Shown here in pieces: positions 31,429-37,190 of a DNA stretch of 43,263 bases (the stretch's first letter is position 1; every line of letters starts with the position of its first letter). This DNA comes from Akkermansiaceae bacterium (GTDB lineage: Bacteria; Verrucomicrobiota; Verrucomicrobiia; Verrucomicrobiales; Akkermansiaceae). The stretch is taken from the NCBI GenBank assembly GCA_029866215.1, contig JARWZU010000004.1, forward strand, positions 1 through 43,263, in the 5' to 3' direction. A program made the translations under genes and the position numbers. The notes beneath the pieces are model-generated. The model was given only the letters and a program-made list of their open reading frames with translations. It was not told the DNA's origin and did no database searches.

Positions 31429-32391
31429 ATGAATGTTTCGGGGTGGCAGGTCTTGTTGTTGGGTGCGGTGATCGGCTTGTCCGGGTGTCAGCGGTCCCGG
31501 GAAACTCGGCCAGCCAAGGCAGTTCCGCTTCGGTCCGACGGCGTCTTGGATTTGCGCTTGATGAGCTTCAATGTGCGTTATGAGAATGTTGAAGACCGGG
31601 GCCAGCGAGCGTGGTGCGAGCGGGTGAGTGGGATTGTGCGGATGATTCGGCAGCAGCGGCCAGATTGCATTGGCGTGCAGGAAGCGCTGCATGGTCAGGC
31701 TGCGGACCTTTGGTCATCGCTGCCCGATTACGAGTTTTTCGGGGTTGGGCGGAATGATGGGCGGCGGGATGGCGAGTACTCGGGAATTTTCTTTCAGCAC
31801 GATCGTTTTCAGCGGGATCAGGAGGATAGTGGAACCTTTTGGCTCTCCGATCATCCAACCGTGCCGGGGTCCAAGACTTGGGGAAATGAGATTCCGAGGG
31901 TCGCTGCATGGGTGCGATTGATTGATCGGAGCACAGGGCGAGGGTTCTATCTCTTCAACACCCATTGGGACCACCGGAATCAGGAGTCGCGCGAGCGGGC
32001 AGCCAAATTGATCGCCATGCAAATCGACCGCCGGAGGCATCTCGATGAGCCCGTTGCACTGGTCGGTGATTTTAATTCGGTCGAGTCAAATCCCGCGATG
32101 AAGTATCTAACTGGAAGGGTGACTTCATTGGTTGGTGCGCAGGAAGTTTGGAAAAACGGCCTGGTCGATGCTTATAAGATCCATCATGCAGGTGAGAAAA
32201 ATCGGCGGACTTTGCATTTTTGGAAAGGCAACCGCGATGGTACCGTCAAGGTGGATCACATTCTCGTGAGCCACGGGGCTACCGTTGAATCCGCCGAGAT
32301 CCTTTCTGAGAACAAGCCGATGGTGTCAGATCACTTTCCCGTTACGGCACGTGTCTTGTTTGCGCAGGGTCGAGTTCGACCAGTCAATTAG
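31429..32391 (+). CDS. Endonuclease/exonuclease/phosphatase family lipoprotein
   Basis: A 320-residue lipoprotein with lipobox LSGC and lipidated Cys20, followed by an EEP-fold domain. The catalytic residues are visible: Asn48 (MSFNVRY), Glu85 (VQEAL), His179 with Asp181 (NTHWDH), Asp214 and Asn216 (GDFN), Asp276 (VDHILV) and His302 (SDHFPV). Such extracytoplasmic EEP proteins can be phosphodiesterases, phosphatases or nucleases; the substrate is unknown. Its TAG overlaps the stop of the convergent small membrane protein gene. Confidence 0.93.
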   Translation: MNVSGWQVLLLGAVIGLSGCQRSRETRPAKAVPLRSDGVLDLRLMSFNVRYENVEDRGQRAWCERVSGIVRMIRQQRPDCIGVQEALHGQAADLWSSLPDYEFFGVGRNDGRRDGEYSGIFFQHDRFQRDQEDSGTFWLSDHPTVPGSKTWGNEIPRVAAWVRLIDRSTGRGFYLFNTHWDHRNQESRERAAKLIAMQIDRRRHLDEPVALVGDFNSVESNPAMKYLTGRVTSLVGAQEVWKNGLVDAYKIHHAGEKNRRTLHFWKGNRDGTVKVDHILVSHGATVESAEILSENKPMVSDHFPVTARVLFAQGRVRPVN

Positions 32392-32711
32392 ATCAATCCC
32401 TGTTCACGGAGGGTTTCCTCCACCTCGTTGTACTCTGGAGCGACGATGCCAGCGTCCCGAATGCGCTGGATTTTCCGCCGCACTCCGACCTTACTGCGAG
32501 GTCCTGTGACGAGGTCGGTGACGCCCTCGACGACGAATGGAAGCAACGCTGAAACCCCTAGGATTCCCAGGCCGATTCCAATACCACGACGTGCTCCAGG
32601 GTGCATCATGTCACCCAGCAATAACCCCGCTGCGGCACCCAGAAGGGCGGGGGCGGTGAGTGTGCTGTGCTCAATCCACGCTGGGCTTGTGTCGGAATAC
32701 TCGTCAGTCAT
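32388..32711 (-). CDS. Small membrane protein, unknown
   Basis: A 107-residue protein with two hydrophobic stretches (about 18-36 and 42-62, rich in Gly, Ala and Leu) and a charged C-terminal tail (KVGVRRKIQRIRDAG and EVEETLREQG). No family is recognised. It starts at ATG 32711, divergent from the mannose-1-phosphate guanylyltransferase gene 104 bp away, and its stop TAA overlaps the TAG of the EEP lipoprotein gene. Confidence 0.75.
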   Translation of the reverse strand: MTDEYSDTSPAWIEHSTLTAPALLGAAAGLLLGDMMHPGARRGIGIGLGILGVSALLPFVVEGVTDLVTGPRSKVGVRRKIQRIRDAGIVAPEYNEVEETLREQGLI

Positions 32712-32815
32712 GAAACATTGCTAACCTTTTTTCTGCCTTTCGACAACTCCTGAAAATGAAATTGTTGTGTATTCCTGCTTTTCCAACGGGGAGCTTTCCG
32801 TCAGACTTCGATCGG

Positions 32816-33898
32816 ATGCTAACCTTTGAAAACACCTATGCACTGATCCTCGCTGGCGGATCAGGGACTCGTTTTTGGCCATTGAGCCGGAATTCGCGGC
32901 CCAAGCAACTGCTTGATTTATTCGGAAATGGAACCCTACTCGAACAAACGATTCGGCGCCTCGAGGGTCTAGTTCCATTGGAGAACATCTTGATCCTCAC
33001 GAATGCCCAGCAGGTCGAATCGGTGCGTGCGATTGCCAGCATGTTGCCGGCGGAGAATATTTTCGCTGAACCCGCCAAGCGGGATACCGCTCCCGCCGTG
33101 GCGCTGGGGGTCGGGTTGGTCGCAGCCCGCAACCCTGATGCGGTGATGATGGTGTTGCCGTCGGACCAATTGATCCAAGACACGGCGGCTTATCAGTCGG
33201 TGATGCGTGACGCCTTGGCGACAGCCGAAAAATCCGCAGGGCTCGTGACGATCGGCATTCGGCCGACGTGGGCCTGCCCGTCGTACGGCTACATCGAGCG
33301 TGGCGAATCCGCACGCATTCCGGGGTTGGAATGTGAACACGCAGCGGTCGAGGTGAAGCGCTTCCGCGAAAAGCCAAGTGCAGAGCTCGCTGCGGAGTTT
33401 CTCGCGCAGGGGCAGTTCTCATGGAATGCAGGGATGTTCGTGTGGTCAGTCTCCGCAGTGATCCACCAGCTTTCGATCCATGCGCCGCAACTCGCCGACT
33501 TCATCTCAGAGGTTCGTCAATCGAGGGATATCGACGCCACAGTTACCGCTCAATTTCCCGAGCTTACCCCGATCTCCATCGATTATGCACTCATGGAACA
33601 TGCGGACCGGGTGCTGAACATCGAGGCGACCTTCGATTGGGACGATGTGGGCTCATGGGTCTCGATCGCCAAGTATCTCGAAAAGTACGGTGCGGACAAC
33701 CGTTCCAATGAACCGATCAGTGAAATTGATTCTCAGCACAACATCGTCTACAACGCCCGCCCCGGAACGCGCATCGCATTGCTTGGCGTCGATGATCTCA
33801 TCGTGGTGCAGACGCCGGATGCTCTGTTGGTTGCAAATCGGCATCAGGCGGATGCGATCAAAAAACTCTCCGACATCCTGCCGGTGGAACTCCTCTAA
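32816..33898 (+). CDS. Mannose-1-phosphate guanylyltransferase
   Basis: Makes GDP-mannose from mannose 1-phosphate and GTP, for surface glycans. The 360-residue protein has the nucleotidyltransferase signature LILAGGSGTRFWPLSRNSRPKQ near 10-31, VLPSDQLIQD, PTWACPSYGYIERG, EVKRFREKPS and FSWNAGMFVWS. It resembles the GMP (ManC-type, single-domain) subgroup. ATG 32816 is chosen because the conserved part begins eight residues later; an upstream ATG at 32756 gives 20 unlike residues. A phosphohexomutase or other sugar gene is not seen near it; the next gene is ruvX, 56 bp downstream. Confidence 0.94.
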   Translation: MLTFENTYALILAGGSGTRFWPLSRNSRPKQLLDLFGNGTLLEQTIRRLEGLVPLENILILTNAQQVESVRAIASMLPAENIFAEPAKRDTAPAVALGVGLVAARNPDAVMMVLPSDQLIQDTAAYQSVMRDALATAEKSAGLVTIGIRPTWACPSYGYIERGESARIPGLECEHAAVEVKRFREKPSAELAAEFLAQGQFSWNAGMFVWSVSAVIHQLSIHAPQLADFISEVRQSRDIDATVTAQFPELTPISIDYALMEHADRVLNIEATFDWDDVGSWVSIAKYLEKYGADNRSNEPISEIDSQHNIVYNARPGTRIALLGVDDLIVVQTPDALLVANRHQADAIKKLSDILPVELL

Positions 33899-33954
33899 GA
33901 GTCCTTTGCCTGTTAGGTTTTTTGTTTCCTGTAACTTGAAACTCCGTTTCTCTC

Positions 33955-34389
33955 ATTCAGACGTACACTGACCATTCTCCGCATCCGGCGCTCGGCATCG
34001 ACCATGGTGATGCACGGGTTGGGATTGCTGCGACCGATGATTTTGGCATTCTTGCGCACCCCGTTGAGACGATCGACCAGTCCAAGGTGGATTCGATCGA
34101 GAGAATCGCTGAGATTTCGGCACTCCGTAAGATTCGCACGCTCGTGGTGGGGCTTCCGGTTCGGTTGGACGGGAGTGAGGGGACCTCTGCCATCAAAGTT
34201 CGGGCCTTCGCGGAGAAGATCCGGATGCGGCTGCCGGATATTCCGCTCGTATTCGTGGATGAAAGTCTAACCACGTCGAGTGCCGCGTCTAAGCTCCGTG
34301 ACGCGGGGCGCAATGCTCGTAAGCAGAAGGCGGTGATCGACCAAGTTGCCGCGATGGAGATCCTAAACTTATGGATGGAGAGGTGTTAG
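33955..34389 (+). CDS. ruvX: Holliday junction resolvase-like RuvX (YqgF), non-canonical start
   Basis: The conserved YqgF fold is evident: LGIDHGDARVGIAATDDFGILAHPVETI with the catalytic Asp, then LVVGLPVRLDGSEG, VFVDESLTTSSAA and KAVIDQVAAMEIL. RuvX acts in 16S rRNA 5'-end maturation and perhaps recombination. The problem is the start: from the in-frame TGA at 33937 to the conserved LGID there is no ATG, GTG or TTG. The first GTG (34087) would remove the catalytic Asp. The start is placed at ATT 33955, giving 144 residues, near the usual size. A one-base deletion or sequencing error is the alternative. It is six bases before truA. Confidence 0.85.
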   Translation: MQTYTDHSPHPALGIDHGDARVGIAATDDFGILAHPVETIDQSKVDSIERIAEISALRKIRTLVVGLPVRLDGSEGTSAIKVRAFAEKIRMRLPDIPLVFVDESLTTSSAASKLRDAGRNARKQKAVIDQVAAMEILNLWMERC

Positions 34390-34395
34390 AGTATC

Positions 34396-35154
34396 ATGAG
34401 ACTCAAACTTACAATCGCTTACGATGGTCGACCTTATAACGGTTGGCAGTCTCAGGCGTGCGGTAATACCGTGCAGGACATCGTTCAGTGTGCGATGGAA
34501 GAGGTGGCGAAGCAGCCGCTGCGCTTGCATGGATCGGGGCGTACCGACACCGGCGTGCATGCACTCGCACAGATTGCACACTTTGATGCACCGCCGGAGA
34601 TTTCGATGAATCCCTTCAATTGGGTTCCGGCGCTGAATTGCAAGTTGCCTGCGACGATTCGGATCATGGCATGTGACGAAGTTTCTGCTGAGTTCCACAG
34701 CCGTTTCTCGGCGACCGGGAAAATCTATCATTTCGATCTTTGCACTGAACCAGTGCTGCAGCCTCTCAAGGCGGGTTTGGCTTGGCATCTTCCGCGTCAA
34801 CTGGACGCTGATGTGTTGCGCCAGGCGTTGTCACTCTATCTGGGCCGACACAATTTCCATGCGTTTGCCGCCTATCGGGGTAATGAAACTCCAGAGATCG
34901 ATTGGTTTAGAACCATCCACTCCGCGGAGTTGGAGACCCTAGAGGACGGTTACCGCATTACTTATATGGGCGATGGATTTCTCTACAAAATGGTCCGACT
35001 TCTTACCGGCGGTGCCGTTCACGCTGCTCAGGGGCGCATTCGGTTGGATGACTTTGCGGGCTTGCTCGATCAGGGGCCTAGCTTGCCAAGAGGCAAATCA
35101 CCTCTGTGTGCTCCTGCCGACGGCCTTTACCTGAAGCATGTGATTTATGGGTGA
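34396..35154 (+). CDS. truA: tRNA pseudouridine(38-40) synthase TruA
   Basis: Isomerises uridine at positions 38-40 of the tRNA anticodon stem. The 252-residue protein has the catalytic Asp51 in GSGRTDTGVHA, the opening LTIAYDGRPYNGWQ, FHSRFSATGKIYHFDL, HNFHAFAAYRG and FLYKMVRLLTGG. These are the usual TruA motifs. It starts six bases after ruvX, so the two are probably cotranscribed. The palindrome at 35164-35181 lies just after its stop. Confidence 0.97.
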   Translation: MRLKLTIAYDGRPYNGWQSQACGNTVQDIVQCAMEEVAKQPLRLHGSGRTDTGVHALAQIAHFDAPPEISMNPFNWVPALNCKLPATIRIMACDEVSAEFHSRFSATGKIYHFDLCTEPVLQPLKAGLAWHLPRQLDADVLRQALSLYLGRHNFHAFAAYRGNETPEIDWFRTIHSAELETLEDGYRITYMGDGFLYKMVRLLTGGAVHAAQGRIRLDDFAGLLDQGPSLPRGKSPLCAPADGLYLKHVIYG

Positions 35155-35163
35155 ATGAGGTGG

Positions 35164-35181
35164 GGTGACAATATTGTCACC
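35164..35181. promoter_or_regulatory. Perfect 18-bp palindrome, candidate operator
   Basis: GGTGACAATATTGTCACC is a perfect 18-base palindrome located ten bases after the truA stop and 71 bases before the start of the glycosyltransferase-phosphoesterase gene. It has no following T-run, so a terminator is unlikely, and the continuous dyad with AT-rich centre resembles a binding site for a dimeric repressor. The regulator is unknown. Confidence 0.5.
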
Positions 35182-35252
35182 GAATCCAAACAGGCGGAGG
35201 GTGTCAGGTGTGATGCCCTTCTGGTGCGGGGCTGGTGCCCTTCGTTGCACTC

Positions 35253-37190
35253 ATGAAAATCGACATCGTTACGGATACCTTCGCACCGGATGTGAATGGG
35301 GTGGCCATGACCTTGGGGCGCTTGACCGAAGGATTGAAGGCGCTTGGTCATCGGTTGCATGTGACTCACACCGGTCAGTTTGCGAATGCTGGAGAAACCT
35401 GCGTGCAAGCGGTGCCTTTGCCAGGGTATTCGGAAGTTCGCGTGGGGTTGCCCGAGCCATTCAAGTTGCGCAAGCGCTGGCGCAAGCGGCGGCCGGATGT
35501 CGTCTATGTTGCGACTGAGAGTCTGTTAGGAAAATCGGCAATCAAGGTGGCAAATTCGCTAGGAATTCCCGTTGCAAGTGGATTTCACACCAATTTCCAT
35601 CAGTACATGGAGCAATACCGCATGGGGACTTTGCAACCGGTGGCCATGGCCTATCTCAAGCGGTTTCATCAGCGCACTGCATGCACATTGGCACCATCGC
35701 AAGAAGTGGTGGATCTATTGCTGGCGGAAGGTTTTGAAAATGTCTATCTACTGGGTAGAGGGGTCGATGCGAACCTCTTCATGCCGGCGAGGCGCTGTGC
35801 GGAGCTTCGTGCGGCGTGGGGGGCGAATGAAGAGGTGCCAGTGGCCATGGTGGTCGGCAGAGTTGCGGCAGAGAAAAATCTCGAGCTCGCGATGCAGACA
35901 TTTGACCATTTGCGTCGGTTGGTCCCCGAGCTGCGGTGCGTCGTAGTGGGTGATGGTCCGCTGCGTGAGAGGTTGGCTGAAAAACATCCTTGGGTTCATT
36001 TCACGGGTGTCCAGCTTGGTGATGACTTGGCACGGCATTATGCCTCAGCGGATGTTTTATTGTTTCCCAGCGAGACCGAGACATTTGGAAATGTCGTCTT
36101 GGAAGGCATGGCGAGTGGGTTGGTCACCGTGGCCTATGATTATGCAGCCGCTTCGCTGCATCTGAAGTCTGGTAACAATGGAATCAGCGTCTCCAAGGGC
36201 GATGTGCCAGGCTTCCTCGCAGCAGCCGCACAGGCCATCACCATGCGCCCCGATCATCCCGTTCGTCTTGCCGCCCGTGAATCTGCTGCCAAGGTGGGTT
36301 GGGATCAAGTGGTCCGTGATTTTGAATTTCGATTAAAATCGATCACTCTCAAAAATGCTCATCAAATCATGCGGTCCGAAAAAATTGCAAAACGCCCGAA
36401 GCTCCGCTGCAGGACACTGATTCTGTCAGACATCCATCTGGGCACCTATGATAGCAAAGCAAACGAGGTGGTGCACTTTCTCAAGCACATCCAATGTGAG
36501 AAGTTGATTCTCAACGGTGACATTATCGACGGTTGGGCGCTCAAGCGCGGTGGCAAGTGGAGCGGGCGGCATAGCAGATTCATCCGCAAGGTGTTAAAAA
36601 TGATGGAGCGTGACGACATGGAGGTGGTCTATCTACGTGGAAATCATGATGATATTCTCGAACGGTTTTTGCCACTGGCTTTTGGGCGACTGCAATTCAC
36701 CAAAGAGCACATTCATGTGACTCAGGCAGGCAAGCGTTACCTCGTCGTTCATGGTGATGGATTTGACAGTGTCTCGACGAATCATAAGTGGGTCGCATCC
36801 ATTGGGTCGGTCGGCTATGATTTCTTGCTGATGGTAAACCGGATTTATAATGTTTGGCGGGCTTCGCGAGGTAAGGACTATTATTCGATCAGTAAGCAGG
36901 TGAAGGCCAAGGTGAAATCTGCGGTGAGCTTTGTGGGTCGTTACGAAGAGCTACTTCAGAATCTGGCCCATCATAAAAAATGCGATGGCATCATTTGTGG
37001 CCATATTCATACGCCCGACGACAAGCAGGTGGGTGAGATTCACTACCTAAACTCAGGCGACTGGGTGGAGAGTTTAACTGCTATCATTGAACACACCGAC
37101 GGTCGAATGGAATTGGTTCAGTATGATTCTTTCATCAAGGCATTGGTAGAATCGGGGCCCCCACCGGCTGATGCTGGATTGGTGATTTGA
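35253..37190 (+). CDS. GT4 glycosyltransferase fused to LpxH-like phosphoesterase
   Basis: A single 645-residue frame with two enzymes. Residues 1-370 are a GT-B glycosyltransferase of the GT4 type (opening MKIDIVTDTFAPDVNGVA, AMVVGRVAAEKNLE, LFPSETETFGNVVLEGMASG). Residues about 388-640 are a calcineurin-like metallophosphoesterase resembling UDP-2,3-diacylglucosamine diphosphatase: SDIHLG (392-397), GDIIDGW with Asp423, GNHDD (463-467), VHGDGFD (499-505) and GHIHTP (583-588). Separate genes of these two types are often neighbours in other bacteria. An in-frame ATG at 36369 (residue 373) lies exactly in the junction and could give a free phosphoesterase. ATG 35253 is used as the start. A role in glycolipid or lipid A-like synthesis is inferred. 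Confidence 0.93.
   Translation: MKIDIVTDTFAPDVNGVAMTLGRLTEGLKALGHRLHVTHTGQFANAGETCVQAVPLPGYSEVRVGLPEPFKLRKRWRKRRPDVVYVATESLLGKSAIKVANSLGIPVASGFHTNFHQYMEQYRMGTLQPVAMAYLKRFHQRTACTLAPSQEVVDLLLAEGFENVYLLGRGVDANLFMPARRCAELRAAWGANEEVPVAMVVGRVAAEKNLELAMQTFDHLRRLVPELRCVVVGDGPLRERLAEKHPWVHFTGVQLGDDLARHYASADVLLFPSETETFGNVVLEGMASGLVTVAYDYAAASLHLKSGNNGISVSKGDVPGFLAAAAQAITMRPDHPVRLAARESAAKVGWDQVVRDFEFRLKSITLKNAHQIMRSEKIAKRPKLRCRTLILSDIHLGTYDSKANEVVHFLKHIQCEKLILNGDIIDGWALKRGGKWSGRHSRFIRKVLKMMERDDMEVVYLRGNHDDILERFLPLAFGRLQFTKEHIHVTQAGKRYLVVHGDGFDSVSTNHKWVASIGSVGYDFLLMVNRIYNVWRASRGKDYYSISKQVKAKVKSAVSFVGRYEELLQNLAHHKKCDGIICGHIHTPDDKQVGEIHYLNSGDWVESLTAIIEHTDGRMELVQYDSFIKALVESGPPPADAGLVI

Follow-up and report, generated by a model that had tools for sequence, protein, structure and literature searches.

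In the window (the whole analysed stretch of 43,263 nt, which is contig C54 of the 3.0-Mb, 88-contig genome G000), the ruvX reading frame lacks an ATG, GTG or TTG codon ahead of the catalytic Asp, and we propose, with a probability of roughly 0.78, that ATT 33955 is a genuine weak start codon, used independently of a Shine–Dalgarno (SD) sequence and giving a low output of RuvX. The closest named relatives of the window are recorded as Akkermansiaceae MAGs. The features concerned are listed in Table 1.

Table 1. Coordinates of ruvX, its proposed start codon and the neighbouring features in the window
Feature	Position	Strand	Remarks
ruvX (yqgF) CDS, ATT to TAG, 144 aa	33955..34389	+	Catalytic residues in GID, VDE, IDQ
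Proposed AUU start codon, 15 codons 5' of the catalytic Asp	33955..33957	+	Homologous codons in relatives
In-frame TGA, upstream end of the ruvX frame	33937..33939	+	
Leader, 56 nt, manC stop to ATT	33899..33954	+	No Shine–Dalgarno; pyrimidine-rich just 5' of ATT
manC (called so here; mannose-1-phosphate guanylyltransferase-like), upstream gene, ends CTC TAA	32756..33898	+	
truA (tRNA pseudouridine synthase), downstream gene, ATG start	34396..35154	+	Served as control

Reading of the in-frame codons of the forward strand showed that TGA 33937–33939 closes the ruvX frame upstream. From this stop to the Asp of the GID motif, the codons are AAC TCC GTT TCT CTC ATT CAG ACG TAC ACT GAC CAT TCT CCG CAT CCG GCG CTC GGC ATC GAC, and neither ATG, GTG nor TTG is present among the 20 codons between the stop and the Asp. 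The first canonical codon in the frame is GTG 34087, located 3' of the catalytic Asp, while TTG 33936 belongs to a different frame. The sequence-only reading had claimed each of these three points, and the codon reading confirmed them, the coordinates of the region lacking a canonical codon included. ATT 33955 is the best start of this frame. The product was identified as RuvX by its matches to Pfam PF03652 (4.3e-36) and TIGR00250 (7.1e-26), the equivalog score for the latter (90.8 bits) being above the curated cut-off of 43.25. The domain is complete, and the acidic active-site residues are all present. The pattern of the three acidic-residue motifs was matched in 68 of the 69 genus rows, with FADE in place of VDE in the remaining row.

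To read the homologous position in relatives, codons were numbered backwards from the catalytic Asp, so that ATT 33955 stands at −15. The ruvX gene was found in 139 of 145 genomes of the family and in 72 of 73 genomes of the genus, and its start region was read in 69 genus genomes and 116 genomes of other genera. From the genus set we left out G192, in which ruvX had no match, G117, whose gene is divided between two contigs, and two fragments (G168 and G185); from the non-genus set, six genomes without a match and one fragment (G138). Scanning of named genomes yielded 17 loci, among which L002–L017 duplicated genomes already searched and L018 (Clostridia) was left out.

Start codons at −15 were scored in 34 of the 69 genus species, and the other 35 were scored as starting elsewhere. 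The codon at −15 in the 34 rows was TTG (10), CTG (8), GTG (5), ATT (4), ATG (4) or ATC (3). In the 15 near-cognate rows among them (CTG, ATT or ATC), the stretch from −7 to −24 was free of canonical codons, but four of the 15 had one farther upstream that might serve as the start in place of the −15 codon: TTG at −31 in G135, TTG at −27 in G153 and G145, which are close kin of each other, and GTG at −31 in G111. A near-cognate codon was also present at −15 in seven of the 35 rows scored as starting elsewhere, with a canonical codon nearby, namely, CTG in G147, G036 and G141, ATC in G026, G154 and G163, and ATT in G144; in G147, for instance, the nearby canonical codon is TTG at −11. A canonical start was absent throughout −7 to −45 in 11 of the 69 genomes (the window and ten more), and every one of these 11 carried a near-cognate codon exactly at −15: CTG in six, ATT in three and ATC in two. 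In the same 11 rows, each of the other columns from −2 to −25 held at most three codons within one base of ATG, column −1 being excepted as the Ile codon of GID. When all rows were counted, 43 of the 67 that were long enough had a codon at most one base from ATG at −15. The ruvX near-cognate pattern thus exceeds what chance or error would produce, and the want of a standard ruvX start across the clade, accompanied by a near-cognate codon always at the same site, is real. The remaining 19 of the 34 rows were canonical (ATG, GTG or TTG) at −15, and so the weak codon is not indispensable.

Outside the genus, 111 of the 116 genomes had ATG (88) or GTG (23) at −7 to −20. Four of the five exceptions had CTG at −11 to −14, and in three of the five a canonical codon lay between −23 and −29. 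Loci L041, L052, L063 and L109, from other genera of the family, showed a ruvX lacking any canonical codon between −7 and −20 and with CTG 11–14 codons before the Asp.

The proposal of the sequence-only reading that translation begins at ATT 33955 was supported by comparison with relatives. The same ATT is found in two separate records (G135 and G176) that are 93–95% identical to the window, as asked of a conserved codon, and ATT recurs in the more distant G152, while in other species the homologous codon is ATC, CTG, TTG, GTG or ATG. Among the window, G135 and G176, indels were found 5' of the ATT, whereas the segment from the ATT to the Asp differed by substitutions and contained no indels. 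We then placed the codons on a quick IQ-TREE tree of ruvX DNA (69 rows, 411 columns), which represents one short gene. Seven codon states required at least 22 changes over the 69 rows, and at least seven changes between near-cognate and canonical were needed within the set of 34 rows that start at −15. The gains or losses were three for ATC, four for CTG (three forced by starred branches) and two for ATT (one forced). The window fell into a starred clade of 15 rows (SH-aLRT 97), in which 11 rows were scored as near-cognate, or 12 with G147.

A fixed-site weak start was not found in any of five control genes, truA, manC, ybeY, rbfA and the PolyA_pol gene. In the genus, truA was canonical in all 38 rows where it was found (33 ATG and 5 GTG), with the start exactly at aligned residue 1 in 37 of the 38. 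ATG occurred in 4 of 34 rows at the ruvX site, whereas truA had it in 33 of 38 (Fisher p 9e-11, computed without regard to relatedness). For ybeY, rbfA and PolyA_pol, which matched in 60, 59 and 57 genomes, respectively, the best 30 loci of each were read, and all 30 were canonical in each case: rbfA with ATG (24) or GTG (6) 2–4 codons before the profile match, ybeY with ATG (29) or GTG (1) 29–43 codons before the match, and PolyA_pol with ATG (27), or GTG or TTG in three rows. The idea that weak starts are common to genes of 30S maturation was thereby ruled out for ybeY and rbfA among these best 30. For manC, a canonical codon was sought within a range from an approximate anchor; it was present in 43 of 43 genus rows, a loose test that chance could satisfy, and four non-genus rows gave no start.

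In the 22 rows with ATT, ATC or CTG at −15, seven of them scored as starting elsewhere, none of the SD motifs GGAG, GAGG or AGGA was detected from −20 to −4 nt upstream of that codon. In G000, strong SD-type tetramers were depleted before the inferred starts (6 of 134, compared with 12.9% at random places), and so ruvX initiation is probably SD-independent. This depletion fits PMC10783764, which lists Akkermansia muciniphila as one of the SD-scarce bacteria whose anti-SD is conserved. No unusual local folding was detected around the ruvX leader (z 0.52), and an Rfam scan of 32000–36000 gave no match.

From these observations we infer AUU translation, low output and a possible reinitiation after manC. 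The initiator tRNA would read ATT 33955 as Met. In the genus, ruvX, often located behind manC, would start without an SD from a codon one base off ATG, rarely from ATG itself, and in some species ribosomes fresh from termination on manC may assist. A weak codon combined with the lack of an SD leads us to predict a low, steady output of RuvX. Coupling to manC is uncertain in the window, where stop and start do not overlap and are 56 nt apart, and most relatives likewise lack an overlap.

Among the 133 rows in which manC precedes ruvX, 25 showed an overlap between the manC TGA and an NTG in the ruvX frame, the NTG being ATG (10), CTG (8), GTG (4) or TTG (3). In the 11 genus rows of this type, the first base of the NTG is the third base of the last manC codon, because that codon is CTC, CTT, CTG or TTG. 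All ten ATG overlaps were outside the genus, with AGA as the last manC codon; these ATGA loci are L076, L079, L088, L093 and L098, together with L101, L104, L116, L119 and L121. In four of the eight CTG overlaps a canonical codon lies nearer the Asp, and these CTGs need not be starts. As a general cause of weak starts the overlap was rejected, since it covers only 6 of the 23 genus CTG, TTG or GTG starts at −15 (G069, G174, G179, G181, G170 and G183). It was also rejected as the cause of ATT and ATC, which occur where manC and ruvX lie apart: the gap from manC to the ruvX start is 52–171 nt in all seven ATT/ATC genomes.

The most serious alternative, which we place somewhat short of even odds, is neutral drift: few copies of RuvX would be needed, any codon one base from ATG would suffice, and the manC overlap would sometimes supply CTG, TTG or GTG. 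The wandering of the −15 codon among six codons agrees with this, as does the NTGA arrangement, in which the last base of manC's final sense codon dictates the first base of the start. The weak starts could mirror a relaxation of constraint instead of selection favouring low output. Drift also gains from a second gene of G000, described below; it accounts less well for the rarity of ATG at the ruvX site compared with truA, and for the near-cognate codon in 11 of the 15 rows of the window's clade.

This second gene (L168:8417-9355, on contig C80) is hydrolase-like and reads ATA at the position of an ATG in G135 and G176, its two closest relatives, with no canonical in-frame codon over more than 100 codons. 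The ATA is a candidate for a second non-standard start in G000, or else for a recent loss. A codon-usage scan for genes without a canonical start, covering 20 stretches of G000 and the window (353 kb in total), flagged 14 of the 232 genes kept, one of them strongly; ruvX was not among the 232, and thus the scan gives no genome-wide rate.

The gene infC of the genus seems to be the other exception to standard starts. At the conserved I-A-K position, 19 of the 30 loci read, from 53 matched genomes, had ATC and the other 11 had ATA, and 7–8 bases upstream lay GGAGG (26 loci) or AAAGGA (4 loci). We infer that this codon is the infC start, because of the SD upstream and the conserved residues between the codon and the next ATG. 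Against this stand an in-frame canonical codon located further upstream in 22 of the 30 loci, including that of the window's genome, and the downstream ATG itself. The apparent start behind an SD is seen at L169–L198 (L193 being the window's own genome), although the genome is SD-depleted. The analogy with infC drawn in the sequence-only reading therefore held in one part, infC of the genus being seemingly non-standard in all 30 loci read, and failed in another, since the infC start has an SD, ruvX has none, and the ruvX codon wanders.

An IF3-controlled switch, as at infC and at sigR of Streptomyces, would have IF3 reject AUU, AUC and CUG, with RuvX rising when IF3 activity falls. The state of infC in the genus suggests that IF3-type discrimination of starts may be in use; in addition, a GTC start in Streptomyces is repressed by IF3 (PMC5472188), and AUA and AUU starts are weak in Staphylococcus aureus (PMC13009471). 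We nevertheless consider such a switch unlikely for ruvX. TTG, GTG or ATG is used in 19 of the 34 relatives starting at −15, and therefore a tight dependence on IF3 is not conserved; moreover, ruvX lacks the SD of infC, and the 30S maturation genes ybeY and rbfA were canonical in their best 30 loci.

A bolder idea is that the near-cognate start acts as a sensor of ribosome quality, raising RuvX when 16S processing lags and so forming a homeostatic loop of one codon. PMC9601230 describes a role for RuvX/YqgF in the processing of 16S rRNA and its essentiality in several bacteria, and in PMC10250234 E. coli ribosomes made with a faulty 16S leader gave 2- to 4-fold more AUC starts. The idea appears improbable, given that ybeY and rbfA showed no weak start in the best 30 loci of each and that near relatives do well enough with TTG or ATG in place of a near-cognate start. 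Quite improbable, too, is a leaderless transcript beginning at or near the ATT. Such a transcript would explain the absence of an SD, but a consensus scan of 33500–34450, limited to the E. coli sigma-70 type, detected no promoter-like site, and to our knowledge leaderless initiation demands AUG.

Production of RuvX by frameshifting or readthrough from manC is highly improbable: in the NTGA overlaps, ribosomes shifting frame at the stop of manC would move into that of ruvX, but the manC of the window ends at 33898, the in-frame TGA 33937 precedes the ATT, and none of the ATT/ATC genomes has a gap below 52 nt. A sequencing or assembly error concealing an upstream canonical start, which the sequence-only reading had offered as a one-base alternative, is hardly credible, since the window is indeed one base shorter before the ATT than G135 and G176, but G176, which carries the extra base, likewise has no canonical start, the ATT agrees between separate records, and the pattern is common to 11 genomes.

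A weak, SD-independent start at ATT 33955 would have practical consequences, since gene callers restricted to ATG, GTG and TTG would truncate RuvX past its catalytic Asp or miss ruvX. Few bacterial genes are known to retain a non-standard start over evolutionary time, and ruvX would add an SD-free one. With six different start codons at the same homologous position, the genus also forms a natural series in which the evolution of start strength could be studied. Searches of one open-access library brought up no account of ruvX starting at a non-canonical codon.

The infC gene of E. coli starts at AUU. Like it, and seemingly like infC of the genus, ruvX keeps a near-cognate start in a gene of the translation apparatus; it differs from the genus infC, which has an SD with ATC or ATA, in having no SD and a codon that changes among relatives. 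For S. aureus, PMC13009471 describes infC starting at AUA and weak starts cutting reporter output to about a tenth in poor medium; ccpN (AUA) and cvfC1 (AUU), described there, have conserved weak starts that limit output, as predicted for ruvX, but differ in having extended SDs. In Streptomyces, sigR (PMC5472188) has, like ruvX, a non-standard start (GTC), and it belongs to a cotranscribed, translationally coupled gene pair; it differs in its extensive predicted ribosome binding site, which ruvX lacks, and in its demonstrated repression by IF3. In IF3-regulated weak starts of the infC and sigR type, an SD is usual but not strictly required, and ruvX is without one. Compared with the RuvX/YqgF family (PF03652, TIGR00250), the domain and the catalytic residues are alike and only the start codon is unusual. 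This type of start is thus already known from infC, sigR and ccpN, and ruvX appears to be new to that kind.
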